A stretch of DNA of 64,000 nucleotides from Alphaproteobacteria bacterium (GCA_028289425.1 JANQPL010000017.1:1-64000), one strand, 5' to 3'; shown: positions 21,739-54,624, numbered from the stretch's first letter. Notes: generated by a model not told the origin, from the sequence alone. Numbers and translations are program-made.

Positions 21739-21804
21739 CTATTCATTTCCTTTCGTCCTCGATAGCCCCTAATTTCGCTCAAGAATAAAACCGAGGACGC
21801 ATCA

Positions 21805-22470: not shown

Positions 22471-22472
22471 GC

Positions 22473-23660: not shown

Positions 23661-23686
23661 TAGGGCGGATCGAAGGAGGAAATAAC

Positions 23687-24457: not shown

Positions 24458-24475
24458 TCCGGGAAGCAGGTCGAT

Positions 24476-25051: not shown

Positions 25052-25082
25052 TCGATGACGGAGAAAACAAGAGAAAAAAGCC

Positions 25083-26690: not shown

Positions 26691-26784
26691 CCACCAAAAA
26701 CAACGAGATCATTTTGTTGGGTGGCAACACGAAGCTTTGAACAGACAAACGTCAGTAAGAGAGATGACGGAAGAGAAACAGGAC

Positions 26785-27516: not shown

Positions 27517-27563
27517 GAAACAACCCGATTCTTGAATCATCTGCTAAATCTGGAGCACTTACG

Positions 27564-32881: not shown

Positions 32882-35800
32882 CTATTGGCTCAGAAGCCCG
32901 AGGGCCACCAAGTCGGTGAGGTATTTGTTGATCAAGTCTTTGTCCAAATGGGGAATGCCGCCGGCGGCTGGCAGGACCTCATCGACGGCGGCGCTGAAAA
33001 ATTCTGCAGACATCGAAGCGCCGGGGACCGCCTTATTCGGCCGGGCAAACATCTCGAGCACGGGAAGTGAAGACCGGGCTTTCACATCTTCCGGCAGAGC
33101 CCGTAAGGCCATCTCGAATCGCCTTAGCCATTCATCGTAGTCATCGATACGCTCGATGGGGATGCCGCTTTGTTCGATCCACTGAACGAAACTGTCCATC
33201 GAGATCCCATCATTATGCGGATTAAGCACGTGATAGGTTTGGTGTCCCGATCGTTCATGGTCGCTGATTGCGACCACCGTTTTGGCGATAAAATCGACGG
33301 GTAGGCCCTCATAATGGGCGTGGGCCGCTGCACCATTGTAGAAGCTTTGCGGCGCAATCCCGGTTCGTGCGACGCTCAGAACAAAGCGTGTAAAGACATC
33401 GGGAATATTGACCTGGCCGCGATAAGATCGGTGGGCGAGAATCATGTTCGATCGGAACACGTTCACAGGCAAGTCGAAACGCTCATTGGCCTCGCGAAGC
33501 AGAACCTCAGCCGCCCATTTGCTCGCTGCATACCCCACCGCATATCCGTCATTCAGTTCAAAATCCGGAATTACGGTGCGAATATCCGCCTCTTCACGGA
33601 TGGCGTGGCCATTTCTATCGAGCGCCGCGGCGACGGTCGAAATGTTGACGACCCTCTTCTTGCGTGTGGTCAGGGCGAGGGCAATGAGCCAGGCGGTGCC
33701 CGCCACATTCGGTTGAAACAATTGCCGATATGGCATTCTGTGGTTTACCAGTGCGCCCACATGGATGATGGCGTCGACTCGTTCCGCCAACTCCGCCCAC
33801 AGCTCGCTTGATAGACCCAGCCGCGGTGCAGACAGGTCGCCTGCAAGGCACACCAAGTGGTTTTTCGCGAACGCGTCGAACCGTTCCTCCAATGCCTTGT
33901 CGCCGGTGAGAAAGGCGTCGCGCAGCCGCACGCCGGCCGCTTCATCGTCGGCGCCACGACCCAGACAGATCAGTGTGCCCCCGTTCTGTGACAGTCGTTC
34001 CAACCATTCCAAAGCAATGAATCGCCCAAGAAAGCCGTTTGCACCGGTTAGAAGAATCGTTTTTGGATCGCCTCGGCTAGCGGGCGCCAGTGACTCTGCT
34101 GCGGCCAGGGTCTCGGCGTCGATAAATCCATCGAGAGTCAGATCCGTAGCGTGAAGGAGCTTGGCGTTTTTGCCATGGATGTCATCAGGGGTTGCGCGGG
34201 CAAAACTGTTTGTGTTTTTGGTGTGTTCGATCTTGCGCGCCAGATCCAAAAGCGTATGCGATGGATGGACAATATCGCCAACTTCGACAGTGATGTCGAA
34301 AACGTCCTCGAGCAACATGGCAAAGGAGAGGGCGGCAAGTGAGTCGCCACCTATCTCGGCAAAAGAGACGTCGCCGTCGTCTCGGATTTCGTCAATACCA
34401 AGCGAAATTTGCGCGGCTCTCAGGACGGTCTCGTCGACTGGCGCGTTTTGACTATTGGCTTTGAGGTTGCGCAGCGCGTCGTCCTGGCCGCGCGCCATCT
34501 CCGCATACATGGTTTCAAGCCGGTCTTGGTATTTCGCGTTGAAAGCGGGGCGCATATATTTGCCGACGCCAGCCAACAATCCATTTTCAACCGAGAAGGG
34601 TTCGGTCTCAATGATGATGTCGCGAGGAATTTCGTAGGAGTTTAGATTGTTAGTTGCAGCGATCTCTCGAATCGCGGTCATCAGTTGTTGTTTTGTCGCC
34701 TTTTCCTTTTGGCCGGCATCCAACAGATCCTGGTTCGGAACAACGACCCCAAGCAGATACGAGCGGGACGAGTTGCCGTAGAGAAACACTTGGCGAAGGA
34801 CGGGGTCGCCACCCGCATAAAGTGCTTCGAGATTTGATATTGCGACAAACTCTCCTTGCGCCAATTTGAGGACGCTATTGCGCCGGTCGAGAAAGCGGAT
34901 CTTGCCGGGTTCTACCTCCTCCATGATGTCGCCGGTGCGGTAAAAACCGTCCGCGTCCAACAGCTTCGCATTGAGCTCCGGGCGCTTGTAGTACCCGTCA
35001 ATCAACCGGCTTGTTTTGACCGCCAACTCACCGCGCGGATAGGGTTTGTCCGTCGTGAAATAGCCAAGTTCGGGAACATCGATCAGTTTGTGCGCGCTGA
35101 TCGGCGGGTTCTGAATAGTTCCGTTGACAGAAACACCACCGGTCTCCGTTGATCCGTAGGAATCGGTAAGCGGAAACCCAAATAGTTTTTCGGTGAAGTC
35201 TTGCAGCTCGGGCGAAAGCGGTGCGGAAGCAATCACCGCGGACTGCAGGCGGCCGCCGAGCAAGTCTTGACGCAATTGGGTGAAGTTATGCTCGCCATCG
35301 TGTGCAAGGTCGGCGCAGGCGCGCTGATACAGCAGTTCGCAGATGCGCGGTACGAGCCCCAAATCGGTCGGGCGCACGAGCGGTAAATCGTCCAGGAAAG
35401 AAGACAAATCGCTCAGCGCCGTAAAACAAAGCAGCCCCCCTCGGCCGAGCGTCATGAAGGTGTACGACGACCCGTAAGAATGGCTCATGGGCTGGTAGTG
35501 GAGGACGATGGCAGGCGGCGCATAAGGGGCGGACGCCCACGGAACAATCGCGTTCTGCTCCGTATAGATAGCGCCTTTCGGCGAGCCCGTGCTGCCGGAG
35601 GTATAAACGATCGAGACGATTGGGGCTTCCCCCTCAGCGGCAACAAAGGGCTCGACTTCCGGCAGGCCCGCGCCGCGGGAGCGGGTGTCTGCAAACGTTG
35701 TCAACGACACACGTGAATTAGACTCCGTCAACGTATTGCGTGCGGTCTTAAGCGCGGTGAGATGGCTCGGGTCATCCTCGTCCACATCAAAGATAAGGAG

Positions 35801-36310
35801 GTTCCGGACGTCTTTGCAGGCAAGAGTGCAGGAAACAGCTTTCTCGAGTTGCTCAACACTAGCCGCAATGCATTTCGGTTGGACCTCAAGAACAATGTCT
35901 TCCAGTTGTGTCGGCGGCGCATTGGACGGCAGCGGCACATAGGGCAAACCGTTGTATTGTACGGCAAGGAGCAGAGCGGCATAGTCGGGCCCGGCAAACC
36001 CAAGGGTCGCGACCATGTCCCCGGGCTCCAAGGCGATTTCAGGATCGTGGGCAAACGCCGACGAAAGAGATTTTACCTGCTCCCAGAGCTCATCATAGGT
36101 CAGATAAATGAAGTGGTCCGCCAGCTCTCCACGTAATTTGGGCCGCCAGCCCAAAGCCGGCCGGTCGCCATAGGACGTAAGCACGATACGGATGATCTGG
36201 GCGATCGAAAGTTCCGGCTGCGTGATGGCATCAATGACCTGTGGGTCGGCTGTTGGTATTACTGCTGCCGAATCCAGCTGTGTGCTCCTATCATCGGTTA
36301 CAAGCGCCAT
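32882..36310 (-). CDS. Carboxylic acid reductase (adenylation-PCP-reductase)
   Basis: ATP- and NADPH-dependent reduction of a carboxylic acid to an aldehyde. The 1142 residues are close to the usual 1150-1180. The adenylation domain spans about 1-640 with VYTSGSTGSPKGA near 235 and DSYGSTETGGVS. The carrier domain has the phosphopantetheine Ser657 in IGGDSLAALSF. The reductase domain from about 740 has the NADPH motif TGANGFLGRF and the catalytic Tyr and Lys in YAASKW near 928. It needs a phosphopantetheinyl transferase, not seen here. It is the last gene of an eight-gene minus-strand operon, 17 bases after an alcohol dehydrogenase, a natural partner for reducing the aldehyde. Such an enzyme is unexpected in a degradative operon. 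Confidence 0.93.
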   Translation of the reverse strand: MALVTDDRSTQLDSAAVIPTADPQVIDAITQPELSIAQIIRIVLTSYGDRPALGWRPKLRGELADHFIYLTYDELWEQVKSLSSAFAHDPEIALEPGDMVATLGFAGPDYAALLLAVQYNGLPYVPLPSNAPPTQLEDIVLEVQPKCIAASVEQLEKAVSCTLACKDVRNLLIFDVDEDDPSHLTALKTARNTLTESNSRVSLTTFADTRSRGAGLPEVEPFVAAEGEAPIVSIVYTSGSTGSPKGAIYTEQNAIVPWASAPYAPPAIVLHYQPMSHSYGSSYTFMTLGRGGLLCFTALSDLSSFLDDLPLVRPTDLGLVPRICELLYQRACADLAHDGEHNFTQLRQDLLGGRLQSAVIASAPLSPELQDFTEKLFGFPLTDSYGSTETGGVSVNGTIQNPPISAHKLIDVPELGYFTTDKPYPRGELAVKTSRLIDGYYKRPELNAKLLDADGFYRTGDIMEEVEPGKIRFLDRRNSVLKLAQGEFVAISNLEALYAGGDPVLRQVFLYGNSSRSYLLGVVVPNQDLLDAGQKEKATKQQLMTAIREIAATNNLNSYEIPRDIIIETEPFSVENGLLAGVGKYMRPAFNAKYQDRLETMYAEMARGQDDALRNLKANSQNAPVDETVLRAAQISLGIDEIRDDGDVSFAEIGGDSLAALSFAMLLEDVFDITVEVGDIVHPSHTLLDLARKIEHTKNTNSFARATPDDIHGKNAKLLHATDLTLDGFIDAETLAAAESLAPASRGDPKTILLTGANGFLGRFIALEWLERLSQNGGTLICLGRGADDEAAGVRLRDAFLTGDKALEERFDAFAKNHLVCLAGDLSAPRLGLSSELWAELAERVDAIIHVGALVNHRMPYRQLFQPNVAGTAWLIALALTTRKKRVVNISTVAAALDRNGHAIREEADIRTVIPDFELNDGYAVGYAASKWAAEVLLREANERFDLPVNVFRSNMILAHRSYRGQVNIPDVFTRFVLSVARTGIAPQSFYNGAAAHAHYEGLPVDFIAKTVVAISDHERSGHQTYHVLNPHNDGISMDSFVQWIEQSGIPIERIDDYDEWLRRFEMALRALPEDVKARSSLPVLEMFARPNKAVPGASMSAEFFSAAVDEVLPAAGGIPHLDKDLINKYLTDLVALGLLSQ

Positions 36311-36327
36311 TCTTTGTGGTTCCGGCC

Positions 36328-37371
36328 CTATAGCGTACTCATATCAATCACAAAGCGGTATTTCACGTCCGCTCGCTCCATGCGCTCAAATGCTTCGTTG
36401 ATGTCCCCCATGGCTATGATCTCGCAATCGGGAAGAATGTTTTTCTCCGCACAAAAATTAAGAAGCTCTTGCGTTTCAGGGAGGCCCCCCATCATGGAGG
36501 CGGTAAGGGATTTGCGCCCTGTCACAAGGCCCCCCGTATGGAAAGAGGGCAACATGTCGATCGCCCCGACCAATGCAACAACGCCGTCCAGGCCCACTAA
36601 GGCGAGATAAGGGGATACATCGTGCGCAACCGGGATCGTGTCGAGCACAAAATCGAAGCGTCCGGTCGCGGCGGCCATCTTTTCCTCATCTGTCGAAATG
36701 AGGACATCGTGCGCGCCAAGGGCAATCGCATCGCTTGCTTTGGAGGGGGACGTGGTCAGCACGGTGACGTCCGCCCCCAGACCAACCGCCAGTTTGACGC
36801 CGATATGTCCGAGCCCACCCAAACCGGCGACGGCCACCTTCGTCGTCGGTCCAACCTGCCAATAGCGCATGGGCGACCAGGTGGTGATCCCGGCACAGAG
36901 TAATGGTCCGGCGCGCTGCGGATCAAGACCCTCCGGAACTCTCAAGACGAAATCATCTTTCACGACAATCTTATTTGAGTAGCCGCCGAGTGTGTTTTCC
37001 CCGGACACCGGGTCGGGGCTGTTATAGGTAAGCGTCATGCCCTGCTCGCAATAGGGTTCAAGACCGTGCTCGCAGGGGGAACACTTGCCGCAACTGTCGA
37101 CCAGGCAACCCACGGCCACAGTGTCCCCAACACTATGTTTGGTCACGTCATCGCCGATGGCGGACACCTTTCCGATGATTTCATGACCGGGCACTAAGGG
37201 GTAGACCGTGTTGAAATAGTCATTGCGGGCGAAATGCAGATCGGTGTGGCAGACGCCGCAATAGAGAATGTCAATGGCCACATCGTCAGAGCGCAGCGCA
37301 CGCCGTTCGAACGAGTATGACGCCAGCGTCGACCCCTGCTCCAGGGCAGCGTAACCTTTTGCTTCTGTCAT
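36328..37371 (-). CDS. Zinc-dependent alcohol dehydrogenase (NADP-type, CAD/YahK-like)
   Basis: The protein has 347 residues of the medium-chain family. The catalytic zinc ligands are in CGVCHTDLHFARND and GHEIIGKV. The structural-zinc Cys residues are in DSCGKCSPCEHGLEPYC. The cofactor motif is GLGGLGHIG. This subgroup favours reduction of aldehydes with NADPH. Placed directly before the carboxylic acid reductase in the same operon, it likely completes an acid to alcohol reduction, or else handles an alcohol or aldehyde from the aldol cleavage. Confidence 0.9.
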   Translation of the reverse strand: MTEAKGYAALEQGSTLASYSFERRALRSDDVAIDILYCGVCHTDLHFARNDYFNTVYPLVPGHEIIGKVSAIGDDVTKHSVGDTVAVGCLVDSCGKCSPCEHGLEPYCEQGMTLTYNSPDPVSGENTLGGYSNKIVVKDDFVLRVPEGLDPQRAGPLLCAGITTWSPMRYWQVGPTTKVAVAGLGGLGHIGVKLAVGLGADVTVLTTSPSKASDAIALGAHDVLISTDEEKMAAATGRFDFVLDTIPVAHDVSPYLALVGLDGVVALVGAIDMLPSFHTGGLVTGRKSLTASMMGGLPETQELLNFCAEKNILPDCEIIAMGDINEAFERMERADVKYRFVIDMSTL

Positions 37372-37404: not shown

Positions 37405-38439
37405 CTATTCGGCCTTCTGTTTCACCAGGTCCAGCGCCACATCCACGATCATATCTTCTTGACCCCCCACCATGCGGCGTCTGCCCAGTTCTACAAGAAT
37501 CTCTCTTGTATCAAGATTATAGTCTTCCGCAGCTTTCTCCGCATGCCGAAGAAAAGACGAATAAACACCCGCATAGCCAAGGCTCAACGTTTCGCGATCC
37601 ACGCGGACGGGGCGATCTTGCAGCGGCCGCACGAGTTCCTCCGCCGCGTCCATCAATTTCATGACGTCGCACCCATGTTTCCATTTCTTGCGGTTGACGG
37701 CGGCGACGAAGACTTCGAGCGGTGCATTGCCGGCACCGGCCCCCATACCTGCTAAGCTTGCGTCAATGCGGACCGCGCCTGCTTGGGCTGCCACAATAGA
37801 ATTGGCAACGCCTAAGGAAAGATTGTGGTGCGCGTGAATGCCCCGTTGGGTTTCGGGCTTTAGAGCCTTGTCATAGGCCGTCATACGCTCGCGCACCCCA
37901 TCCATGTCGAGAGCACCGCCTGAATCGGTCACATACACGCAGTGCGCGCCGTAACTTTCCATTAGAACTGCTTGCTGTGCGAGCTCTTCAGGGCCGATCA
38001 TATGGCTCATCATAAGAAAACCGGAAACATCCATCCCCAGATCGCGCGCAATGCCAATGTGTTGTTTGGAAACGTCCGCTTCCGTGCAGTGGGTTGCGAC
38101 CCGAACCGAGCGGACACCGATGTCATAGGCGCGGCGCAGTTCTTCAACGGTTCCTACGCCTGGCAGGATAAGGGTAGTCAAGACGGCGTTTTGCAAAACG
38201 CCGGCGACCGCTTCCAACCATTCCCAATCCGTATGAGCACCAAAACCATAGTTAAAACTGGCACCTGACAGGCCATCGCCATGGGCCACTTCGATCGCAT
38301 CGACGCCCGCTGTGTCCAATGCTTCGGCGATCGCGCGCACATGATCGGTGCCATACATATGACGAATGGCGTGCATACCGTCGCGCAGCGTCACATCTTG
38401 GATGTAGAGTTTATCTTTTATTGGATCAAAGCGGGGCAT
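37405..38439 (-). CDS. 4-hydroxy-2-oxovalerate aldolase family protein (HsaF/DmpG-like)
   Basis: The protein has 344 residues. It splits a 4-hydroxy-2-oxoacid into pyruvate and an aldehyde; metal-dependent TIM barrel. Key features are [12 protein letters not shown] with the catalytic Arg and metal Asp, a metal-binding [11 protein letters not shown], and the C-terminal DmpG-type communication domain. The acylating aldehyde dehydrogenase is the next gene upstream (38-base gap), matching the usual channelling complex. In a steroid pathway it would release pyruvate and propanal from 4-hydroxy-2-oxohexanoate. Confidence 0.94.
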
Positions 38440-38477: not shown

Positions 38478-39398
38478 CTACCCAATGCGTGCCGCCATGA
38501 GTTCGCCGGTCGCTTTTGCCGCTGCAGTCATGATGTCCAAGTTCCCCGAATACGGTGGCAAATAATCGCCGGCCCCTTCCACTTCCAAGAATACCGAACT
38601 TTTGATTCCGCTAAAGTCGCCCATCCCAGGGATATGCAGTCTGTTATTGTCGCCAAAGCGTTCAAACTGCACCTCCTGTTTCAAGCGATAGCCGGGGACA
38701 TAGGACTGCACCTTCTCGACCATCTCTTCGATGGAACGGCGGATCTGTTCCTCCGTTGCGCCCTCCGACAGTGTAAAGACCGTGTCGCGCATGATCATGG
38801 GCGGTTCTGCAGGGTTGAGAATGATGATGGCTTTGCCTTTTTTCGCTCCGCCGACGGACTCAATGGCATTGGCGGTCGTTCGTGTAAATTCGTCGATATT
38901 CGCCCGCGTTCCCGGCCCTGCAGAGCGGGACGAAACAGACGCAACGATCTCGGCATAATGCAGGTCGGCTACTTGAGAGACGGCCGCCACGATGGGAATG
39001 GTGGCTTGACCGCCGCAGGTTACCATATTGACATTGGATTCCTCCAAATGCTGTTCCATGTTGACGGGCGGGACCGTAAACGGGCCGATTGCTGCGGGGG
39101 TCAGGTCAATCACTCTTTTGCCGTCGGCGCGCAGGGCTTTGTCATGATCCGCATGGGCGTATGCGGACGTGGCGTCAAAAACGATGCGAATATCTTCGTA
39201 GACATCTAATGCGCGCAGTCCGTCTAAGCCTTCGTGGGTAGTCGCGATACCATGTTCCCGGGCCATGGCTAGCCCTTCACTGTTCGGGTCGATCCCGACC
39301 ATCGCGGCAAGTTCCATGTTCCGCGATAATTTGATCATCTTCATCATGAGGTCTGTGCCGATATTGCCGGACCCAATGATTGCGACTTTCACACCCAT
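38478..39398 (-). CDS. Acetaldehyde/propanal dehydrogenase, acylating (HsaG/DmpF-like)
   Basis: The protein has 306 residues. It oxidises the aldehyde from the aldolase to an acyl-CoA with NAD and CoA. The Rossmann motif [10 protein letters not shown] is at 7-16. The catalytic Cys128 is in [12 protein letters not shown]. The C-terminal region has the conserved [18 protein letters not shown]. It is co-transcribed with its aldolase partner. Product would be acetyl- or propionyl-CoA depending on substrate. Confidence 0.95.
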
Positions 39399-39411: not shown

Positions 39412-40200
39412 TTACGCGAAGCTGATGCTGCATCTACCAACGCCGCCCAGTTCCATTTCAAAACTATCGCCCGGTGATGCGGGTTCAAGGGGAACGAGGC
39501 TGCCCGATAAGATGATTTCGCCCGCCTTGAGTGGGACTTCATACCGGCCAAGTGTGTTGGCTAACCAGGCAACCGCTGTCAGTGGCGACCCTTGTACGGC
39601 AGACCCCACTCCCTTTGAAAGAAAATCACCGTTTTTGAAAACTTGCACTTCCAGGTTGGTTAGATCGAAACCCTTTGGGTCGACATGATCTTTGCCCAGA
39701 ACAAAAATGCCGCACGAGGCATTGTCCGCGATCGTATCGATAATGCCGATTTGCCAATCTTCAATTCGGCTGTCGACGATCTCAAAGCAAGGTACGATTG
39801 CCTCCGTTGCAGCAAGGACATCGTCTTCGTGAATGCCGGGTCCATTGAGATCACCTTTCAAGATGAAGGCAATCTCTGCCTCGGCCCGGGGCTGCAGCAG
39901 ATTTGTGCCGAGGACATCCACGGTTGCCCCGTCTTCCACTTGCATCCGATCGGTCAAAAAACCGAAATCAGGCTGGAATACGCCGAGCATTTCTTGCACG
40001 GGCTTCGACGTCACACCGATTTTCTTCCCGATGACTTTTTCGCCGTCCCGCTCTCGCCGCTTCAGGAAATCAAGCGAAATGGCATAGGCATCATCAATCG
40101 TCAGTGTCGGGTGTGACGCGACAAGGGGAGGGATCGGCGTTCGGTTGCGCAATGCCGTATACAGCTTTTCGCCAAGCGCAGAGATTTCGGAGGAACTCAT
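39412..40200 (-). CDS. 2-hydroxydienoate (2-keto-4-pentenoate) hydratase (HsaE/MhpD-like)
   Basis: The protein has 262 residues. It hydrates a 2-hydroxy-2,4-dienoate to a 4-hydroxy-2-oxoacid, the aldolase substrate. Metal-binding Glu residues are in RAEAEIAF and CFEIVDSRI; GKKIGVTSKPVQ and SGSLVPLEPASPGD are conserved. Its start overlaps the stop of the flavin reductase gene by 4 bases (ATGA). With aldolase and dehydrogenase it forms the standard meta-cleavage lower pathway. Confidence 0.94.
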   Translation of the reverse strand: MSSSEISALGEKLYTALRNRTPIPPLVASHPTLTIDDAYAISLDFLKRRERDGEKVIGKKIGVTSKPVQEMLGVFQPDFGFLTDRMQVEDGATVDVLGTNLLQPRAEAEIAFILKGDLNGPGIHEDDVLAATEAIVPCFEIVDSRIEDWQIGIIDTIADNASCGIFVLGKDHVDPKGFDLTNLEVQVFKNGDFLSKGVGSAVQGSPLTAVAWLANTLGRYEVPLKAGEIILSGSLVPLEPASPGDSFEMELGGVGRCSISFA

Positions 40201-40670
40201 AGATACCTGCCATCGAAATAGACAAGGGGTGCACCGATCTCATTCATCTGAATGCGAATGACATTTCCCACAACAATGCTGTGAGAACCGTATTCGATAA
40301 TCTTCTGTACGACGCAAAAGATATTGGCATGTGCGTCCGACAGGCAAGGGGTGCCATCTTTATCTTGACCCCAACTGCCGATGGCGAACTTGTCGTCACA
40401 CTTGATGACCTTGCCGAAAGCATTCGAGACGTCTTCATGACCTTCTTTAAGCAGGTTAATGCAGTAGCGATCACCGATGCTGAGACCAGGATGAATGCTT
40501 GCTTGTCTATTGACGCACGCGACCAGGGATGGTGGGTCCATGGACAGAGAACAAACGGCCGTTGCAGCGATCCCGGCCCATTCGCCGTTTACCTTGCAGC
40601 TGATCAAAGAGACGTTGGCTGCAAGACGTCTCATGGCTTGCTTGAACTGGCTTTGTATTTGGTGCGTCAT
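40197..40670 (-). CDS. Flavin reductase-like protein (HsaB-type)
   Basis: The protein has 157 residues from ATG 40670; a start 10 codons earlier is possible. The flavin-reductase domain is clear: MRRLAANVSLISCKVNGEWAGI, then SLSMDPPSLVACVNRQASIHPGL and NLLKEGHEDVSNAFG. It supplies reduced FMN or FAD to a two-component monooxygenase. The obvious partner is the HsaA-like oxygenase at 52614, transcribed from the other arm of the cluster. Confidence 0.9.
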   Translation of the reverse strand: MTHQIQSQFKQAMRRLAANVSLISCKVNGEWAGIAATAVCSLSMDPPSLVACVNRQASIHPGLSIGDRYCINLLKEGHEDVSNAFGKVIKCDDKFAIGSWGQDKDGTPCLSDAHANIFCVVQKIIEYGSHSIVVGNVIRIQMNEIGAPLVYFDGRYL

Positions 40671-40709
40671 CGCAGGTCCATTTTGCGCAGCGGTTCTCAA
40701 AGGTCTGAT

Positions 40710-41504
40710 CTACTTACCTGTGAGATTGGGCTTGGTGCGCTCCATCATCGCCTCGACAGCAATCTTGTGGTCTTCCATGAACATACTGACGTTCTCGAAA
40801 GCCGCAGATACATCAATTACCGCACTGGCTGTCACTTTCAGACCTGCGTTGATGGACGCTTTTGTCCATCTCACTGCGTATTTGGGCGTGTTCAAAAGTT
40901 TCTTGATCGTCTTGTCGACCGTGGCGTCCAAATCCTCTTCGGAAACAACATCCGTAATAAGACCAATATCCGCCGCGGTTTGCCCGTCGACAAAAGCTCC
41001 CGTAAGCAGGTATTTGCGTGCGCGTGCATAACCGATCAGCATGGGCCAAAGGTATGCGCCGCCGTCGCCCGCAACCAGACCCACCGCCACATGAGGGTCA
41101 GCGAATTGGGATTTTGGGGTTGCATAAACAAAGTCGCAAAAGAGGGCAAGCGAACATCCCAAGCCGACAGCGGGGCCGTTGACTTTAGCGATCATGGGCT
41201 TTTCCAAATCCAAGATCGCATTTTGGAGGATCCGATCCTGATGGATTCCTTTGGAAGTGGCCACGGCGTCGCGGTGCTGGTCGCGCAACATCGCTAAATC
41301 GCCGCCGGCGGAAAAAGCGCCGCCGTTCCCGGTCAATATGATGATGTCAATGTCATCGTCTTTGTTCACCTCCGGAAAAATCGACACAAGTTCTTTGTGA
41401 ACGGCGTCGTTGATGGCATTGAGCGCTTCGGGCCGATTGAAGGCAATCGTCAGAACGTTATTGTCTTTCGTAACTTGTAAGTTGGTGTATGTCGAATAGG
41501 CCAT
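40710..41504 (-). CDS. Enoyl-CoA hydratase/isomerase family protein
   Basis: The protein has 264 residues from ATG 41504 (MAYSTYTNLQ), which has AGGA 7 bases upstream; a start 10 codons earlier exists. Crotonase-fold signatures are AFNRPEALNAIND, ILTGNGGAFSAGGDLAM and VNGPAVGLGCSLALFCDFVYA. Located after the CoA ligase, it may act on the ring C/D acid once it is activated, as EchA-type enzymes do in actinobacterial steroid breakdown; that role is inference. Confidence 0.9.
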   Translation of the reverse strand: MAYSTYTNLQVTKDNNVLTIAFNRPEALNAINDAVHKELVSIFPEVNKDDDIDIIILTGNGGAFSAGGDLAMLRDQHRDAVATSKGIHQDRILQNAILDLEKPMIAKVNGPAVGLGCSLALFCDFVYATPKSQFADPHVAVGLVAGDGGAYLWPMLIGYARARKYLLTGAFVDGQTAADIGLITDVVSEEDLDATVDKTIKKLLNTPKYAVRWTKASINAGLKVTASAVIDVSAAFENVSMFMEDHKIAVEAMMERTKPNLTGK

Positions 41505-41546
41505 GACGTTTTCCTGTTCGTTTTCTAAGTGCACATTCTCAGAGAA

Positions 41547-43193
41547 TTATGGATTGTTGAGTGAGGTGATCAGTTGATCCCTCAATACGAATTTCTTGAT
41601 TTTGCCCGATGGCGTTGCGGGAAACTCGTTCACAAAATTGATGTGTTCGGGAATCTTCCACAGAGAAATGTTGTCCATGCACCACGCTTTTATCTCGTCA
41701 GCTGATGCGTGATTTTTCGCACGCGACCGAATGGCTGCGCAGACAATTTCACCATACTTCTGATCTGGAATGCCGAAAACGGACGCCTCGTCCACATCAG
41801 GGTGCTTCAAAAGGAAGTTCTCAATCTCCGTGGGCGAAATGTTTTCACCACCCCGGATTATGATGTCTTTCAAACGCCCCACAAGAGTGATGTACCCTTC
41901 CGCATCCATTGTGGCGAGATCGCCAGTATGGAGCCAGCCCTCATCGTCGATGGTCTTGTCATCTTCCAAATTGAGATAACCGAGCATCTTACCGGGACCT
42001 TGGTAGCAAAGCTCACCTTGTCGGCCGAGTTCGACGACGGAACCTTCGTCATCAATGACCTTGAGCGAGACGCCGGGAAGGGCTTTCCCACAGGTGGAAG
42101 ACTTTTTTTCTGTGCTGTCCTTGCTTCTAATGCACGTCATAGAGCCGGAACATTCTGTTTGTCCGTACCCATTGGCAATTTCGGCTTGGAAAGCCGTTTC
42201 GCATTTGATCACAAGTTCAGTCGGCACAGGCGCGCCGCCGACATTGATGAACCGCAGTGCAGAAAGGTCTCGCGAGGTAAACGTCTCATCTTCGAGCATT
42301 GCGATTAGCATCGATGGCACGCCCACAAAGCCGGTGCACCGTTCTCTCTCCAGGACATCCAGCGTTCTGCGCGCGTTAAAGACGACAAGGGGCAGCAGCG
42401 TTGCACCTGTCATCACCGAACCGAGAACACCAAATCCTGAGCCGCCAATGTGAAACAGCGGAAATCCGAGGCACACACGATCGCCTTCACCAAATCCGCA
42501 GGCGCGAAATCCATTGCGGCCGCTTGTGGTCACCGATCGGTGGCTAAGCTGCGGTGCTTTCGGCAAGCCGGTGGTACCCGATGTGTATTGGATCATCTGA
42601 ACGCTATCGGCCGAAACATTGTTCAGCAGTCCTTGGTCGACCGGTGCGTTCAGGTTGAATAGGTCTTCAATACCTTCCGTGAAGGAATGTTTGAATTTTA
42701 GGGAAGGCGCGTCTGCAGCTATGTCGTCGATCAGAGCAGCCACGCGTTCACCACGGATGATGTCCGCATGGAAAATACCTTTGGCCTGCGCTGTGTCCAG
42801 CGCGTAGATCAGCTCTCGAGATTTATAGAGGGGGTTCAAGGCAACCAGAATGAGGCCTGCTTTTGCGATGGCATATTCCAGCAAGATCCATTGGCGATGG
42901 TTGGCGCCCCAAACCGCAACTTTGTCGCCCGGCGCATATCCACTTTGAATGAGCGCTGCAGCCAGACGGTCTGAAAGTGCGTTGAGCTCAGAGAAGGTCC
43001 ACCGAGCGTTCTCGGTGTCCCCCTGGCAGGCGTAGACGACATATTCTTGATTGCCGAACCGTTCCGCAGCCTTCACGATCGCTTGCCCGACGGAGATTTT
43101 TTCCAAATCTCCGTCTTCAGGCGTGGCGGTCCAGATTGATTTCGTCGGGTGTGTGTTCAATGGTAATCGCCTGCTCTGTGACGTTTGCCTCAC
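41547..43193 (-). CDS. AMP-dependent acyl-CoA synthetase (FadD-like)
   Basis: The protein has 548 residues. It forms an acyl-CoA from an acid, ATP and CoA. The P-loop YTSGTTGLPKAPQLSHR is at about 202, GYGQTECSG carries the A5 region, LHTGDLATMD the A7 motif, and the C-terminal catalytic Lys is in PSGKIKKFVL. The start is uncertain; the first 12 residues are poorly family-like and TTG 43160 is an alternative. It leads the minus-strand operon. It could activate the steroid ring C/D propionate acid (FadD3-like role), which would fit the neighbours. Confidence 0.92.
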   Translation of the reverse strand: MRQTSQSRRLPLNTHPTKSIWTATPEDGDLEKISVGQAIVKAAERFGNQEYVVYACQGDTENARWTFSELNALSDRLAAALIQSGYAPGDKVAVWGANHRQWILLEYAIAKAGLILVALNPLYKSRELIYALDTAQAKGIFHADIIRGERVAALIDDIAADAPSLKFKHSFTEGIEDLFNLNAPVDQGLLNNVSADSVQMIQYTSGTTGLPKAPQLSHRSVTTSGRNGFRACGFGEGDRVCLGFPLFHIGGSGFGVLGSVMTGATLLPLVVFNARRTLDVLERERCTGFVGVPSMLIAMLEDETFTSRDLSALRFINVGGAPVPTELVIKCETAFQAEIANGYGQTECSGSMTCIRSKDSTEKKSSTCGKALPGVSLKVIDDEGSVVELGRQGELCYQGPGKMLGYLNLEDDKTIDDEGWLHTGDLATMDAEGYITLVGRLKDIIIRGGENISPTEIENFLLKHPDVDEASVFGIPDQKYGEIVCAAIRSRAKNHASADEIKAWCMDNISLWKIPEHINFVNEFPATPSGKIKKFVLRDQLITSLNNP

Positions 43194-43811
43194 AGTTTTG
43201 GATCGTCAAACCTCTGATCCTCCATCCAACCGGCTCGCGGGACATCACGTTTTTCGTGCAGGTCTGTGTTCCAACAACCGACTTATCGGAAATCGCGCTA
43301 CCGTCACATTTTCGAAAGACCACTCTCAGCTTGCCAGAAACTGCCAAGTGGAGTAATTCGCATATCGCTCGCATTTTGTTTGCGTCTTTATGCTAATTCT
43401 AAGACTGTGCAACTGCCAAAAACGCGCAAATGCAGTTAAAGGTTTCGGGTCGGGACTTGTGCTTTGCAAACCAGCGAGACCACTGTGTGGTGATATTTGA
43501 ACAGTATAGTCCTTTGACGGACTAAATGATGGCTTCGCCAATCTCGCCCGGCCGGTTCCGTATCGATTGTATGAGCCCAAACAGCCAAAAAACCCCGAAA
43601 TTAGGGGATTTCCTTGTACGCCCACCTAACATGACAATAAATGAGTAGAACGCGAGCTGATACTCAGTTTGTTCCATTTTATGGTTTTTAAACCGCGGCC
43701 CGTGGTGATGCGAGTACCTTTTTGCGAACATAACTGTGCGTTGGCGGTTCGAAGGCAAGCCAAAACAGTGCTTTCTTCGGGGTTATATAATTTACAAATG
43801 TAGGGGGAGGT
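43194..43811. promoter_or_regulatory. Divergent control region between the ligase operon and the TonB receptor
   Basis: A 618-base gap with no gene-like open frame. It must hold the promoters for the minus-strand hsa/CAR operon and the plus-strand receptor. An imperfect inverted repeat, CTTGCCAG-AAA-CTGCCAAG, lies at 43330-43348, a possible operator. The region before 43800 is AT-rich. No other structure was recognised. Confidence 0.5.
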
Positions 43812-46139
43812 ATGATGCGGAGTCCTCAAGGGCTGCTATCGGCGGTGTCCGTACTCGCGCTATGTGTCGCGTCTACGGCAGCGACAGCGCAAATTGACGA
43901 AATCTTGGTTACCGCGCAAAAACGCGAACAGAGTATTCGCGATGTTCCCATATCTATGGTGGCATTCCAGGGCATAGATATCTTGGATCAACAAATCACT
44001 GGTTTGGAAGATTTGGCATACACCTTGCCGAACGTTCATATTTCCAAAGACACCATCTCGAACAACATCTATATGCGTGGCGTCGGATCCGGGGTTAGTC
44101 CGGGCTTTGAACAGGCCGTCGCCATTTTCGTAGACGGAGCTTATCGGGGGCGGTCGCGTTACACCAATTCAACCCTCGTCGATATCGAACGCGTCGAAGT
44201 GCTGCGCGGCCCGCAGACAACCTATTTCGGGAACAATGCCATCGCTGGCGCGTTCAGCGTGACCACCAAAGGACCGGACCTGGACCAATGGAATGGGTAT
44301 GGTCAGGCGTCCTATGAATTTGTTGGAGAGGAGCCGGTGGTGGAGGCGGCGGTCGGCGGCCCAGTGGTCCAGGACCAATTTGGCATTCGCGTGGCAGGCA
44401 GGTTCTCGCGGCTGGAAGGCTTCCTGGATAACCAGGGAACCAACGGTCAAGATCCCACGATCAACGATAGATTTGGTCGTCTGTCCGCACTTTTGCAGCT
44501 TGCCCCCGAATGGTCGGCCGCGTTCAAGGCGGAGTATGGTCGGCAAACCTCCGATGGGGCATTTGCGGCGCAACTCTTCAATTGTCCCGCGCCCGGCTTC
44601 GCGCCTTCCGGGTCTTGCACGGCGGCCATCGCTGCCGGTCAAGAGGATGATCTCGATTTCAATCGTGTGTCCAATGGCGGCGAACGTGGCGAAATTGAGG
44701 CCTCAGAATTTATTTGGAACTTGAAGCGTGACAATGAAGTGGGTCATGGTTTTTTTGTTCAAGCCACTCATTCTCGCGGTGACTTCGTCATCTCCGGCGA
44801 TACCGACCTGACAACGGATGACCGGGTCACATTCTCGAACATTGAAGCGAATGAGCAGACGACAATCGAGGTGCGGCTGGACTCTCCGTCCGATTCGAAA
44901 CTGCAATACACACTCGGCGCTTACTACTTGGACAGTGAGTACCAGTTTAGCAGTAACTTCAACCTGCTTTTCTTGACGCCAACGGTCGTACCGTTCATCG
45001 CAGGCGGTCTGTTCTCTGCTGCTGCACCGTTTGCTCCGTTCACGGTAGACAGCAATATTTTCGCTGAGGAAACGGCCTTCTCTTTCTTTGGGTCTGCCAC
45101 ATGGCCCTTTACGGATGAATTCTCCGCCACCGTTGGGTTGCGGTACATCAATTCCGATAAGGCCGCTGTGCAGGATTCCCAACCGAAAAACACAAATGAT
45201 CGGTATGGTTTCTCCACCGACTTCATTACAGATCCTGCCGCGTTGGGCGCCGCTTCCGCGCTTACCCAGACGGTCGCACAGAGCCAACTAGGATCGGTTC
45301 AGGACGACGATATTTTGCCGTCTGTGACTTTGGCCTATGAGCCGAACGAGAACACGAATCTTTATTTCAAGTACTCGGACGGTTTCAAAGCGGGCGGTTT
45401 CGATCCGCTCGAACGGTCGGGTGTTGCAGGCCGATTGACATACGATCCTGAAACTGTTCACGCCTACGAAGTGGGCCTGAAGTCACTCTGGCTAGACAAT
45501 ACTTTGTCATTCAACGTTGCGCTGTTTCGCTCCGACTATACGGATCTTCAGCAAGCCGTCGTTCAATTCGCAGGCGGCAGCGCCTTTGTGGTCACTCAGA
45601 ATGTGGGCGGATTGACGTCCCAAGGCGCTGAAATAGAAGTGGCCTGGGAAGCCACCGAGAATCTGACATTCTCAGCTGATGCAGCCTTTCTGGATGCATA
45701 CTACAAAGACTATCCTAACGCGGGCTGTAACGCGTTCCAGCAAGTTGTTACGCCTGTCAATTGCGTGCAAGATTTGTCCGGTGTGGCACCGCCTTATGCC
45801 CCTAACTATGCAGGCATTGTTCGGGCAAGTTACGAACAGCCGATCGCCAATACTAACTTTGTCTTTATCGGTGATGTAGCTTTCTCCTTCTCAGATGGGT
45901 ACAGCTTGGCACCCGACAATGATCCGGTCGGACGGCAAGGGTCATGGCAGAAAGTCGATCTGCGGTTGGGCTTGTCTGATGCGGATGCAACCTGGTCCCT
46001 CGCCTTTATTGGTAAGAATCTGGCAAATGAGAAAGTGTTCGCAACTGCCAATGACGTGGTGGGGACGGCGGGTTCTTATTTCGCGACGATCGAAAGAGGG
46101 CGGTTTCTAGCACTGCAAGCGCGTTACAACTGGAACTAA
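43812..46139 (+). CDS. TonB-dependent outer-membrane receptor
   Basis: The protein has 775 residues. A signal peptide runs to about residue 26 (cleavage near TAQ-ID). The TonB box DEILVTAQKREQSIRDVPISM follows, then the plug (about 45-170, with EVLRGPQTTYFGNNAIAGA) and a 22-strand beta-barrel ending in the aromatic RYNWN. GGGGGAGG precedes the start. Placed at the head of the steroid-type cluster, it likely imports the hydrophobic substrate across the outer membrane. A terminator follows. Confidence 0.95.
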   Translation: MMRSPQGLLSAVSVLALCVASTAATAQIDEILVTAQKREQSIRDVPISMVAFQGIDILDQQITGLEDLAYTLPNVHISKDTISNNIYMRGVGSGVSPGFEQAVAIFVDGAYRGRSRYTNSTLVDIERVEVLRGPQTTYFGNNAIAGAFSVTTKGPDLDQWNGYGQASYEFVGEEPVVEAAVGGPVVQDQFGIRVAGRFSRLEGFLDNQGTNGQDPTINDRFGRLSALLQLAPEWSAAFKAEYGRQTSDGAFAAQLFNCPAPGFAPSGSCTAAIAAGQEDDLDFNRVSNGGERGEIEASEFIWNLKRDNEVGHGFFVQATHSRGDFVISGDTDLTTDDRVTFSNIEANEQTTIEVRLDSPSDSKLQYTLGAYYLDSEYQFSSNFNLLFLTPTVVPFIAGGLFSAAAPFAPFTVDSNIFAEETAFSFFGSATWPFTDEFSATVGLRYINSDKAAVQDSQPKNTNDRYGFSTDFITDPAALGAASALTQTVAQSQLGSVQDDDILPSVTLAYEPNENTNLYFKYSDGFKAGGFDPLERSGVAGRLTYDPETVHAYEVGLKSLWLDNTLSFNVALFRSDYTDLQQAVVQFAGGSAFVVTQNVGGLTSQGAEIEVAWEATENLTFSADAAFLDAYYKDYPNAGCNAFQQVVTPVNCVQDLSGVAPPYAPNYAGIVRASYEQPIANTNFVFIGDVAFSFSDGYSLAPDNDPVGRQGSWQKVDLRLGLSDADATWSLAFIGKNLANEKVFATANDVVGTAGSYFATIERGRFLALQARYNWN

Positions 46140-46237: not shown

Positions 46238-47896
46238 ATGGACGTCAATGATTCGAACTGGCATTCGCGGGTGAAGGAGCCGCGCCGGGAGACCTCGGCT
46301 GACGATACCAAATGGGATGACGAAGCCGACGTGGTCATTGTCGGTTTAGGTGGCGCCGGCATTTGTGCCGCTTTGGAAGCGCTTCACCGTGGCGCCAATG
46401 TGATTGCCATTGACCGGTTTCGCGGCGGCGGCGCAACGCGATTGTCCGGTGGCGTTTATTATGGCGGCGGCGGTACCCGCCACCAAATGGAGGCCGGCGA
46501 AAAAGACTCCCCCGAAGAAATGTTCAAATATTTGAAGCTGGAGGTGGGGGATGCGGTCACGGACCAAACACTCTTGGACTTCTGTCAGTCCAGCAACCAA
46601 AACTTGGAATGGCTTGAGCAACACGGCGTATCGTTCGGATCGGCGGTCGCGCCCATCAAGACGTCCTATCCGGCCGACAAGCATTTTCTCTACTATTCAG
46701 GAAATGAGGCGCAAGCCGATTATGTTAGCCGTGCCAAAACCGCTCGGAGGGGTCACCGAACATGCGGAAAGGGGCTAACCGGACACCTCTTTTTCGATGC
46801 TCTCTTTAGCTCGGCTATGAAACAGGGGCTGCGTCTGTATACGTTGAGCGAAGCGAGAAGATTCATTGTGTCGCCCGACGGCGCAATATCGGGCATAGAG
46901 GTTCAGCAAATCGATGAGGGGACACCCGCGGCGAAAGAATTGGACAAACTTTGCGACAAGTTTGCCGAACCGACCACATTGATGTTCCCTAAAGTGGCGC
47001 GCAAGATTGTCAAGCGAGCAAACGAAATCTCCGATACCGAAGGCGTGCCGAAAACGATAAAGATCGGCAAGGCGGTTGTTTTATCTGCCGGGGGCTTTGT
47101 GCAAAACAGGGAAATGGTCGCGCACCACGCACCAAAATACAAGGTGGCCACCGCGCTTGGAAGCATCGGTTGCGATGGGTCCGGCATTCGATTAGGCCAA
47201 TCAGTTGGTGCGAAGGTTGACCGGATGAATTATGTGTCCGCCTGGCGTCAATTTAATCCGCCGGCTGCTCTTGCAAGCGGCATTGTGGTCAACGGCAAAG
47301 GCGAACGTTATGTGGCCGAAGATGTTTATGGCGCCGTCATCGGGTACCACATGGGCGAAGAACATGATGGTGTGTCATACATCATCATCGATAAGAAGCT
47401 GCGAAAACAAGCGTTCTGGCAGTCCATGCCCTCTTCAAACATTAACTTTCGGGTGCAGGGCGCACCTGCCTTGCTGGGCATGTTTCGCTCGACGACAAAG
47501 GGGAAAACGATTGAGGACCTTGCTCGAAAATTGGCGATGGACTCTGAAAAGCTGAAGAGTTCCGTTGACCACTACAATCGTTCGTCACGGGGATTGGAAG
47601 AGCCCAAGTTCCGCAAGCATGAAGATTTTATCAGCACAATCGATGAGCCACCCTTCTATGCCATCGACATATCGCTTGGGAATCAGAAATACATTTGTCC
47701 GTCGATTTCGTTGGGGGGCATTGTGGTTGACGAAACAACCGGGCAGGCACTGGACGAAAACGGCCAACCGATCCCGAAGCTCTATGCGGCGGGAAAAAAC
47801 GCAGTCGGCGTGTCGTCGAACTTGTATGTGAGCGGATTGTCTATTGCGGACTGCGTCTATTCGGGACGCGTTGTCGGCCGGTCAGCAACTCAATAG
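46238..47896 (+). CDS. FAD-dependent oxidoreductase, 3-ketosteroid dehydrogenase/fumarate-reductase type
   Basis: The protein has 552 residues. The FAD motif VVIVGLGGAGICAALEALHRGA is at about 32, followed by DRFRGGGATRLSGGVYYGGGG. Ending PKLYAAGKNAVGVSSNLYVSGLSIADCVYSGR is the FAD end of the family. It lacks the YPGGG segment of the two KstD-like proteins at 49692 and 55741, so it may be a delta-4 or other ring dehydrogenase or a flavoprotein reductase. It lies 6 bases from the tail of the convergent SDR. Position in the cluster argues for a steroid-like substrate. Confidence 0.85.
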   Translation: MDVNDSNWHSRVKEPRRETSADDTKWDDEADVVIVGLGGAGICAALEALHRGANVIAIDRFRGGGATRLSGGVYYGGGGTRHQMEAGEKDSPEEMFKYLKLEVGDAVTDQTLLDFCQSSNQNLEWLEQHGVSFGSAVAPIKTSYPADKHFLYYSGNEAQADYVSRAKTARRGHRTCGKGLTGHLFFDALFSSAMKQGLRLYTLSEARRFIVSPDGAISGIEVQQIDEGTPAAKELDKLCDKFAEPTTLMFPKVARKIVKRANEISDTEGVPKTIKIGKAVVLSAGGFVQNREMVAHHAPKYKVATALGSIGCDGSGIRLGQSVGAKVDRMNYVSAWRQFNPPAALASGIVVNGKGERYVAEDVYGAVIGYHMGEEHDGVSYIIIDKKLRKQAFWQSMPSSNINFRVQGAPALLGMFRSTTKGKTIEDLARKLAMDSEKLKSSVDHYNRSSRGLEEPKFRKHEDFISTIDEPPFYAIDISLGNQKYICPSISLGGIVVDETTGQALDENGQPIPKLYAAGKNAVGVSSNLYVSGLSIADCVYSGRVVGRSATQ

Positions 47897-47902
47897 CCAT
47901 CT

Positions 47903-48676
47903 TTACAGACTAAAGCCACCGTCCAGCGTCAGCGTCTGTCCGGTGACGAAACGGGCCCGGTCCGACGCGAAGAAGACAACCGCGTCCGCCACCTCTTCCG
48001 CGGCCCCTAGCCGTTTGAGGGCAGAATTTTGGATGGCCGCCGTCATGTATTTTTCATCGTAATGATCGGCGAGCTTTTGGAACAGTCCCGCATCTATCAG
48101 TCCGAGTGCAACCGTGTTGGCGCGTATGCCGAACCGTCCTTCTTCTTTTGCGATGCCGGTCATGAGCGCGTCGATTGCTGCTTTTGGCGCCACGGACAGC
48201 ACGTCCCGGGTCGGCCAGCGCTTCAAACCAGCCGTGCTGATGGTCACATAAGAGCCCCCGCTTTCGCGCATGTGTGGCAGGGAGTAGTGGACAATGTTGA
48301 AAAAGCCATTGGCGTCGCTGTCCATCACCGCGCGCCATTCCTTTGGTGTCAATTGACTGATCCAAGGCATCGTAATGTGAGCGCCCGTTGCATTGATGAT
48401 CGTGTGAGGGCACCCGTGTTTGGACAGCAGAATCTGGAAGAACTCTTTGACTTGGTCTTCATCATCTATGGCCAAGCTGTAATAATGCGCTTCTTGGCCG
48501 TGGTCTGCAATTTTTCCGGCGACGTCTTTCGCCTTCGCCTCATTGCTTCGATAGGTAAAGGCGACATCGGTGCCCGCTTCCGCCAGCTTTAAGCAGATGG
48601 CTTCACCGATGCCGCCGCTGCCCCCAACCACAAGCGCAATACCCTCTTTCGATTCAAAGCCTGATGCAATGGGCAT
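47903..48676 (-). CDS. SDR-fold oxidoreductase with atypical active site
   Basis: The protein has 257 residues from ATG 48676 (MPIASGFESKEG), with GGGAGG 6 bases upstream; the further upstream start is not family-like. The cofactor motif is VVGGSGGIGEA. The Ser is in VTISTAG. The stretch for Tyr-x-x-x-Lys reads VLSVAPKAAIDAL, where Lys is present but no Tyr is visible at the usual spacing. It ends TLDGGFSL, typical of FabG-like enzymes. It is the only minus-strand gene inside this plus-strand block. Confidence 0.85.
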   Translation of the reverse strand: MPIASGFESKEGIALVVGGSGGIGEAICLKLAEAGTDVAFTYRSNEAKAKDVAGKIADHGQEAHYYSLAIDDEDQVKEFFQILLSKHGCPHTIINATGAHITMPWISQLTPKEWRAVMDSDANGFFNIVHYSLPHMRESGGSYVTISTAGLKRWPTRDVLSVAPKAAIDALMTGIAKEEGRFGIRANTVALGLIDAGLFQKLADHYDEKYMTAAIQNSALKRLGAAEEVADAVVFFASDRARFVTGQTLTLDGGFSL

Positions 48677-48945
48677 AGGCGCCTCCCAATGATCCGTATG
48701 CCGTCCATTCCCGTGACGGGAAACCGGCGGGGTTCTCTCCAGCATCAATTTACCGAGGGATCCAGCTCATTTTGAACTCGCTTTGAGGTGTGGCGTCGCT
48801 CGAAAGAGGAATGGTCGTTTTGGGACTGTAGCCAGAGCCCGAATAGGCTGATTCTGCAAGTCATTCAGAGGGGTTACGAGAGAATGCGAGTGAATTGTGA
48901 GCGCCAATGCGTACTACACTCGTCCTCTAAAACGAAGGGTGAATT

Positions 48946-49655: not shown

Positions 49656-49691
49656 CTTGGGGATGTGGGAAGCCATAGGGCTCTTGAACTA

Positions 49692-51389
49692 ATGGAAAGC
49701 GGAACTTTTGATGTCATTGTCGTAGGATCGGGGGCCGCGGGGTTCCTTGCAGCCATCCGTGCGGCCGATTTGGGCGCCAGCGTCGCGATGATTGAAAAAG
49801 AGCCGCTCTTTGGTGGAACCTCCGCCATGTCCGGTGGCGGCATTTGGGTTCCAAACAATCGTGACATCGGGTCTGCCGGGGTGTCCGACAGTGCCGAAGA
49901 AGCCTTCGAGTATATGCGCCACGTCATTCCGGAAAACCAGGTGAGTGACGAGACGATACGGACGTACATCACTTCCGCCCCGGAAATGATTGAGTACATG
50001 GAAAAGATTGGTGTGAAGTACGTCCCCGTAGCAGGGTATGCGGACTATTACCCAAGTGCCCCCGGCTGGAAGCCCGGCGGCCGAACCATGGACTGCATGT
50101 CGTTTGACAGCCGTTTGCTCGGCGAGGAGTTCCTTCAGCTTCGCGATACCCAGCCCCAAAACAAAGTGTTCGGTCTGACCAACATGCGGATCAGCGAAGT
50201 AACGGTGATTCAAGCACAAGCCCAAAACTGGCAGTGGATGGCGTCAAAGATCATGTTGGGCTACATGGCGGATCTCAAAGGGCGCCTCAAAGGGTGGCGC
50301 GATCGGCGCTTGACCATGGGTGGGGCTCTGGTCGGCAGTCTGAGGTATCAAGCGATTAAGCGCGGCATACCGCTTCATCTTAGAACGCGGGTTCGAGAGT
50401 TCACCCGCGATGAAGACAAGATCACCGGCGTGATCGCAGAGGACCGAGACGGGAACAAGATCGAGTTTGCCGCCAAGAAAGCCGTGGTCTTAACGTCGGG
50501 TGGCTTCGAACACAACGACGATCTGCGGCAGCAACATCTGCCCGGTCCGACCCGAGAGATCTGGTCCGCCGGCGCGTCTGGGAACACAGGCGATATGATT
50601 GCTGCCGGCGAAAAGGTCGACGCCGCCTTCGGCCTGATGCACGAAGCGTGGTGGGCCCCCACCGTCAGGTGGGGAGATAGAACCAATGTGTTGTTCTTCG
50701 AAAAAGGCAAGCCGAACTTGATAATCGTCAATCAAGAGGGACAGCGCTTTATGAACGAGTCCATCACTTACAATTCATATGGCGACTGCATATACGGGGC
50801 GAAAGACGCACGATCTCCGCAGTTTCCAGCCTTTGTCATATTCGACAGCACGTACCGCAAGAAGTTTCCGTTTGGGGAGCTTTTGCAGTCCTCCATAACG
50901 CCAGATTGGATGCGGCCGTCGGCGTTTGGCCCGGATGGTTTGCTGACGAAAGCGAACTCACTGGAAGATTTGGCCGGCGAACTGGGTATCGAGAAAGACG
51001 GTTTGTTGGCGACCGCCGGTCGCATGAAACGGTTCGCGGAAACAGGCATCGATGAAGACTTCAGTCGCGGCAGCGATGAACACGATCGCATGTATGGCGA
51101 TCCAACGGTAACACCCAATCCCTGTCTTGGCCCGATCGAAACGCCGCCATTCTATGGCACACAATTATTCCCCGGCGACATCGGCACCAAGGGTGGTTTG
51201 GTGATCGACAATGACGCGCGGGTTCAGGGCAAGTCGGGCGGGCCCATAGATAATCTGTATGCGGCGGGAAACTGCACCGCGTCCATCATGGGGGACAAAT
51301 ATCCAGGTGCAGGCTGCACCTTAGGACCAGCGCTCACGATGGCGTATCGCGCGGCAAATCACATCATGGCAAACGGCGCGGCGCACTGA
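49692..51389 (+). CDS. FAD-dependent 3-ketosteroid dehydrogenase-like protein (KstD-like)
   Basis: The protein has 565 residues from ATG 49692; an upstream TTG at 49665 adds nine residues. The FAD motif VIVVGSGAAGFLAAIRAADLGASVAMIEKEP is at the start, and GGTSAMSGGGIWVPNN follows. The catalytic region shows YADYYPSAPGW, FMNESITYNSYG and GDKYPGAGCTLGP, which correspond to the Tyr, Tyr and Tyr-Pro-Gly segments of 3-ketosteroid-delta-1-dehydrogenase. Delta-1 dehydrogenation of a 3-ketosteroid-like compound is the likely reaction. The Rieske oxygenase is next, 73 bases on. Confidence 0.88.
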   Translation: MESGTFDVIVVGSGAAGFLAAIRAADLGASVAMIEKEPLFGGTSAMSGGGIWVPNNRDIGSAGVSDSAEEAFEYMRHVIPENQVSDETIRTYITSAPEMIEYMEKIGVKYVPVAGYADYYPSAPGWKPGGRTMDCMSFDSRLLGEEFLQLRDTQPQNKVFGLTNMRISEVTVIQAQAQNWQWMASKIMLGYMADLKGRLKGWRDRRLTMGGALVGSLRYQAIKRGIPLHLRTRVREFTRDEDKITGVIAEDRDGNKIEFAAKKAVVLTSGGFEHNDDLRQQHLPGPTREIWSAGASGNTGDMIAAGEKVDAAFGLMHEAWWAPTVRWGDRTNVLFFEKGKPNLIIVNQEGQRFMNESITYNSYGDCIYGAKDARSPQFPAFVIFDSTYRKKFPFGELLQSSITPDWMRPSAFGPDGLLTKANSLEDLAGELGIEKDGLLATAGRMKRFAETGIDEDFSRGSDEHDRMYGDPTVTPNPCLGPIETPPFYGTQLFPGDIGTKGGLVIDNDARVQGKSGGPIDNLYAAGNCTASIMGDKYPGAGCTLGPALTMAYRAANHIMANGAAH

Positions 51390-54619: not shown

Positions 54620-54624
54620 TCGAG

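Follow-up and report, generated by a model that had tools for sequence, protein, structure and literature searches.

Aerobic steroid breakdown by the 9,10-seco pathway involves the kstD, kshA and hsaABCDEFG genes, or the tes genes of Comamonas. It is generally drawn as oxidative to HIP-CoA and beyond. Mycobacterium and Rhodococcus degrade HIP via EchA20 and IpdAB; in actinobacterial ipdAB and echA20 mutants HIP metabolism is toxic and CoASH is depleted, and homologs of the ring C/D enzymes have been reported in all characterised steroid degraders (PMC5380842). Neither a steroid cluster containing a carboxylic acid reductase (CAR) paired with an alcohol dehydrogenase (ADH), nor a CAR in steroid catabolism, is described in the open-licence literature searched. 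This agrees with the original prediction, in which the pair was not known from any described steroid cluster.

CARs reduce an acid to the aldehyde with ATP and NADPH. Most of them prefer aromatic or medium/long-chain acids, and they are weak on very short ones. CAR requires phosphopantetheinylation, usually by an Sfp-type enzyme. Aldehyde reduction by the YahK/CAD class, which includes E. coli YahK/Ahr and the plant CADs, is NADPH-dependent. An adjacent CAR and YahK-type ADH occurs, as in the window, on Sphingobium Tom plasmids (e.g., AP027325.1).

Of the present locus it can be concluded that: (i) the enzymes are of known kinds; (ii) as far as the literature searched shows, a steroid ring-cleavage operon in which the two have a fixed place is undescribed; (iii) since it stays with the gene set in both other carriers found, the pair is probably a dedicated, undescribed side branch of steroid breakdown.

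The operon and its divergent steroid cluster

The window, i.e., the whole stretch of 64,000 nucleotides analysed, is contig C12:1-64000 of a 5.42 Mb genome (99.75% complete). It contains homologs of KstD, KshA, HsaA, HsaC and HsaD together, as well as HsaE-, HsaF- and HsaG-like genes, in two divergent units (Table 1). CAR and ADH are added to this 9,10-seco set. The HsaA, HsaC, HsaD and KstD proteins are homologs that score under the equivalog cut-offs of the pathway.

The minus-strand unit has eight genes in the order CoA ligase, crotonase, HsaB-like, HsaE, HsaG, HsaF, ADH and CAR, with successive gaps of 12, 9, −4, 13, 38, 33 and 17 bp. Since the genes are closely spaced, co-transcription of the whole unit is likely. 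No promoter-like site was found in the HsaF-ADH and ADH-CAR junctions by a promoter/terminator scan, the counts of which are close to the shuffled expectation. The measured gaps before ADH (33 bp) and between ADH and CAR (17 bp), like the position of the pair at the operon end, are those originally proposed. The intergenic region is probably the control region of both divergent units. Three genomes share short blocks within it, some resembling AATTCGCATATCGCTCGCATTT and others GAGTAGAACGCGAGCTGA, which are possible operators. A second catabolic-looking unit lies at 20808-28400 of the window: a LysR gene, then a GST, a type III CoA transferase, two SDRs, a 191-aa unmatched protein, a GMC oxidoreductase and a TauD dioxygenase.

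Table 1. Features of the steroid locus in the window, with strand and basis of assignment.
Feature	Coordinates	Strand	Basis or remark
Carboxylic acid reductase (CAR), A-PCP-R, 1142 aa; last operon gene	32882..36310	-	profile, Pfam, solved-structure matches, motifs
YahK/CAD-type zinc alcohol dehydrogenase (ADH; aldehyde reductase), 347 aa	36328..37371	-	profile, Pfam, solved relatives, motifs
HsaF-like 4-hydroxy-2-oxovalerate aldolase	37405..38439	-	TIGR03217 571 bits, cut-off 286
HsaG-like acylating aldehyde dehydrogenase	38478..39398	-	TIGR03215 462 bits, cut-off 282
HsaE-like 2-hydroxydienoate hydratase	39412..40200	-	TIGR03220 366 bits, under equivalog cut-off 409
HsaB-like flavin reductase	40197..40700	-	profile + Pfam
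Crotonase (enoyl-CoA hydratase/isomerase)	40710..41534	-	profile + Pfam
Acyl-CoA ligase, operon head	41547..43193	-	profile + Pfam
Divergent intergenic region	43194..43811	.	three genomes share blocks here (e.g., GAGTAGAACGCGAGCTGA at 43643)
TonB-dependent receptor	43812..46139	+	
FAD-dependent (KstD/flavocytochrome c-like) dehydrogenase	46238..47896	+	
SDR	47903..48748	-	kept in all three clusters
3-ketosteroid delta1-dehydrogenase-like	49665..51389	+	
KshA-like Rieske oxygenase	51463..52560	+	three best solved relatives all KshA
HsaA-like monooxygenase	52614..53783	+	
HsaD-like hydrolase	53804..54619	+	
HsaC-like extradiol dioxygenase	54616..55509	+	best solved relative 2zi8/2zyq
Second KstD-like FAD protein	55741..57441	+	
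TetR regulator (candidate regulator)	57501..58115	-	80-81% conserved in both other genomes
Acyl-CoA dehydrogenase	58500..59663	-	80-85% conserved in both other genomes

The CAR, the only one of the window genome, scores 1358.8 bits with NF041592, the NCBIfam equivalog for «carboxylic acid reductase», and thereby passes its curated cut-off of 1300. It is matched end to end by the solved CARs 5msc, 5msp and 5mso (E down to 0). AMP-binding, PP-binding and NAD_binding_4 Pfam domains follow in one chain, i.e., the full-length A-PCP-R architecture of the Nocardia, Mycobacterium and Segniliparus CARs, and the motifs are also shared: YTSGSTG (236-242), MSH (275-277, His) and the A10 Lys (584) in the A domain; GGDSL (654-658) with the phosphopantetheine Ser657 in the carrier; GYAASK (926-931), i.e., Tyr927 and Lys931, in the reductase domain; and the NADP loop. 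With all of the catalytic motifs present the CAR is intact, and the Ser657, Tyr and Lys of the original prediction are confirmed. The AlphaFold2 model of the CAR alone is unusable (pLDDT 34.7).

The best solved relative of the ADH is E. coli YahK (1uuf, E 7e-107), followed by 10-hydroxygeraniol dehydrogenase and cinnamyl alcohol dehydrogenase (plant). It belongs to the zinc MDR family and has the zinc motifs and the nucleotide loop (GLGGLGH) in common with YahK/Ahr and the plant CADs, which agrees with the zinc alcohol dehydrogenase expected beside the CAR. It reaches 301.6 bits with the Ahr equivalog NF047908, under the cut-off of 470, and it is thus called YahK-like and not Ahr.

Conservation and probable transfer of the pair

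A congener has the same operon, gene for gene, and likewise the same divergent KstD/KshA/HsaA/D/C cluster. Both are also kept in a Parvularculaceae MAG (labelled Marinicaulis, JANQOV010000061), the operon of which has an extra pimC/pimD-like acyl-CoA dehydrogenase pair between crotonase and HsaB. Had the pair been apart from the hsa genes in every relative, the original prediction would have been contradicted; the opposite is seen, the pair being linked to them in both relatives found. Since both keep it, the linkage is no accident of the window genome. The ADH-CAR gap of the MAG is 105 bp, so that a CAR promoter of its own is possible there. Overlapping samples of 59 relatives, 385 class-level and 398 phylum-level genomes, and 299 genomes from the order of the MAG, yielded no further CAR at E <= 1e-100.

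Identity to the window is 66% (CAR) and 81% (ADH) in the congener, and 71% and 80%, respectively, in the MAG. For CAR, pN is 0.18-0.22 vs. a near-saturated pS of 0.69-0.75, and for ADH pN is 0.12-0.14 (window vs. each of the two genomes). These values indicate purifying selection on both genes in both genomes. The CAR motifs and reading frame are kept across 29-34% protein divergence. Chance ORFs were rejected as a reading of CAR and ADH because both genes are conserved under such selection; a pseudogene reading was likewise considered, then dropped. A recent foreign insertion of the CAR was also set aside: GC and GC3 of CAR and ADH barely exceed those of most neighbours.

The MAG and the window genome apparently belong to different orders, since among the relatives of the window genome its own order is represented by the congener only, while the order of the MAG supplied 299 genomes. 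AcpS and LepB are 87% and 80% identical to those of the window genome in the congener, and 72% and 48% in the MAG. The cluster proteins, on the contrary, are about equally similar to the window in both. In the CAR tree, window and MAG pair with the congener outside (support 93/94). This pairing, the nearly equal cluster identities and the 80% vs. 48% for the housekeeping LepB suggest that the steroid cluster is transferred as one unit, and CAR and ADH with it.

The operon CARs form their own branch with respect to known bacterial CARs (stem of 0.83 changes per column, support 100/100). Near the catalytic His of the A domain they have SHS[YF]G[ST]S, whereas solved CARs have SHxxGR and Sphingobium CARs NHTSGR; this change fits an altered acid pocket, a hint drawn from the alignment. 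The Sphingobium CARs, found on nine Tom plasmids, are a separate branch (100/100), with low support (42/47) for their relation to the operon CARs. Both Tom plasmids inspected (TomTYG46, TomMM7A) have an adjacent ADH after the CAR, with 45% (CAR) and 54-56% (ADH) identity to the window. Unlike that of the window, the Tom pair lies outside the hsa operon, in reverse gene order, and a full ipd set is on the same plasmid. On pTomTYG46a, hsaE-G-F and a complete set of the ipd/scd type lie some 11 kb away from the pair, while on the other Tom plasmids CAR and hsaF are far apart. A general CAR-hsa linkage in Sphingobium was thus rejected, the two being close in just one of the compared plasmids. The words «carboxylic» and «reductase» occur nowhere in the text of the tomatine-Sphingobium paper. 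The window CAR is inside a steroid operon; the three actinobacterial plasmid CARs inspected are outside any, with neither hsa genes nor an adjacent ADH beside them.

Two side observations concern these replicons. AP027325.1 (TomTYG46) has two copies of the ipd/echA20 cluster, at W01:44-66 kb and about 544-559 kb (EchA20 100%, IpdB 78% identical). The MAG has a second hydratase-HsaG-HsaF-hydratase module at contig C53:9683-13120, the HsaG and HsaF of which share 87-88% identity with those of Sphingobium.

Ring C/D genes and activation of the CAR

The Sphingobium IpdB and EchA20 proteins and the Pfam family CoA_trans (PF01144) were used as ring C/D probes, with a Sphingobium plasmid as positive control; all three matched it. 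IpdB has zero matches in the window genome, the congener and the MAG. No EchA20 ortholog was found in the three genomes, where only distant crotonases occur (about 30% at best). PF01144 has no match in the window genome and the congener; its two matches in the MAG are on contig C18, away from the cluster, and IpdB finds nothing there. Recognisable IpdAB and EchA20 are absent from all three operon genomes, so that an acid left over from rings C/D is plausible.

Beside the cluster of the MAG there are a nitronate monooxygenase (NMO)-family protein (35% to Sphingobium IpdC), an SDR, a MaoC hydratase, a thiolase and acyl-CoA dehydrogenases. The adjoining beta-oxidation set (contig C53:91680-107392) has five crotonases and a PF13336 acetyl-CoA hydrolase/transferase, and is a candidate for a non-canonical ring C/D pathway. 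Two of these extra genes have likely orthologs in the window genome, an NMO (73%, C12:394.7 kb) and a crotonase (58%, C19:286 kb); for most of them no close ortholog was found in the ~0.8 Mb of that genome that were read. The extra beta-oxidation genes of the MAG weaken the reading that rings C/D are not degraded at all. Together with the CoA ligase and crotonase at the start of the operon and the acyl-CoA dehydrogenase pair of the MAG, they make ring C/D degradation by another route possible.

Separately, at C19:280001-300000 of the window genome a squalene-hopene cyclase is found beside a crotonase, an acyl-CoA dehydrogenase, a CoA ligase, a GMC oxidoreductase, a P450 and an MFS gene, an unusual mix of terpenoid synthesis and breakdown.

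As to the phosphopantetheinyl transferase (PPTase), AcpS is the only one found in the window genome (143 aa, beside lepB, contig C2, about 122.7 kb) and in the congener. The MAG has AcpS and a 253-aa Sfp-type PPTase, with which nothing was found in the two other genomes. For these two, activation by AcpS, a divergent PPTase that escaped the search and an inactive CAR are the three possibilities.

A putative reductive branch and its alternatives

The chances are about even that CAR and the YahK-type ADH are a fixed reductive branch of the steroid cluster, reducing a steroid-derived free acid to an alcohol. In such a branch, a free acid from steroid breakdown would be adenylated, loaded on the carrier and released by CAR as the aldehyde (ATP and NADPH), which ADH would reduce to the primary alcohol (NADPH). 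Given that these genomes lack the known hydrolases of rings C/D, the likeliest substrate would be the bicyclic propanoate left after HsaD cleavage (HIP/9,17-DOHNA) or a compound closely derived from it. Whether excreted or retained, the alcohol would prevent the acid from tying up CoA; the HIP toxicity and CoASH drain of ipdAB and echA20 mutants (PMC5380842) offer a motive. The CoA ligase and crotonase of the operon may represent a parallel oxidative fate, with CAR as a possible overflow. Several findings go against this branch: the CoA ligase and crotonase at the operon start and the beta-oxidation genes of the MAG, with which rings C/D may be degraded otherwise; the coexistence in Sphingobium of a CAR-ADH pair and a full ipd set, and the distance of CAR from hsaF on other Tom plasmids; the 105-bp ADH-CAR gap of the MAG; and the usual CAR activator, an Sfp-type PPTase, which was found in the MAG but not in the window genome and the congener, a difficulty for any role of the CAR. 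Of the original prediction, the enzyme identities and the operon membership stand; so does, from family knowledge, the expectation that acid is turned into alcohol and that ATP and two NADPH are spent on it. Competition with the CoA ligase is a possibility, as are detoxification, excretion and wax synthesis as roles; the steroid origin of the acid, the reductive flow in vivo and the purpose are what we infer.

The genes beside the cluster of the MAG (NMO-family protein, SDR, MaoC, thiolase, acyl-CoA dehydrogenases, five crotonases, PF13336), two of them with likely orthologs in the window genome, would fit a complete non-canonical pathway for rings C/D in which the pair is an ordinary step and its aldehyde or alcohol is degraded onward by crotonases, acyl-CoA dehydrogenases and a CoA hydrolase yet to be assigned. 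This is unlikely: spending ATP and two NADPH on an alcohol is an odd start for beta-oxidation, the operon already has a CoA ligase for the direct route, and most of the extra genes lack a close ortholog in the part of the window genome read. It is rather improbable that the CAR only happens to lie in the operon and acts on non-steroid acids, fatty or aromatic, either to make storage wax or to detoxify acids from a host or from plants. The general preference of the family and the fatty alcohols obtained with CAR and an aldehyde reductase in engineered strains would agree with that role, but the CAR is in the hsa operon of every operon-bearing genome, moves with the ring-cleavage genes and was otherwise not found in the sampled genomes.

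An inactive or relic CAR in the window genome is very improbable. It would account for the detection of AcpS alone in two genomes, but AcpS may serve or a divergent PPTase may have been missed, and the strong conservation of the CAR (motifs and frame, pN well under pS) argues against a dead gene. Propanal is the product of HsaF and the substrate of HsaG, the genes directly followed by ADH and CAR, so that ADH could scavenge the propanal released by HsaF and CAR could handle propionate (giving propanal for HsaG, or propanol). However, aldehyde channelling by HsaF and HsaG is known, very short acids are poor CAR substrates and direct activation of propionate by an acyl-CoA synthetase would be cheaper, and such scavenging can be given hardly any weight.

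For the reductive branch preferred here, a bolder form is possible but doubtful, i.e., a truncated aerobic steroid pathway in which rings A/B would be consumed, rings C/D would not be opened by known enzymes, and the bicyclic propanoate would be reduced by CAR and ADH to a neutral alcohol that is released, this reductive exit being transferred among Alphaproteobacteria as one unit. A reductive pair conserved within a ring-cleavage operon, in genomes where the known hydrolases of rings C/D are missing, suggests a branch not yet described, and possibly also partial degraders that release bicyclic remnants. If true, a CAR suited to bulky alicyclic acids would be on offer. Since acids of the HIP type are candidates for refractory molecules in seawater (PMC10100752), an acid-to-alcohol route would matter for the fate of steroid carbon.
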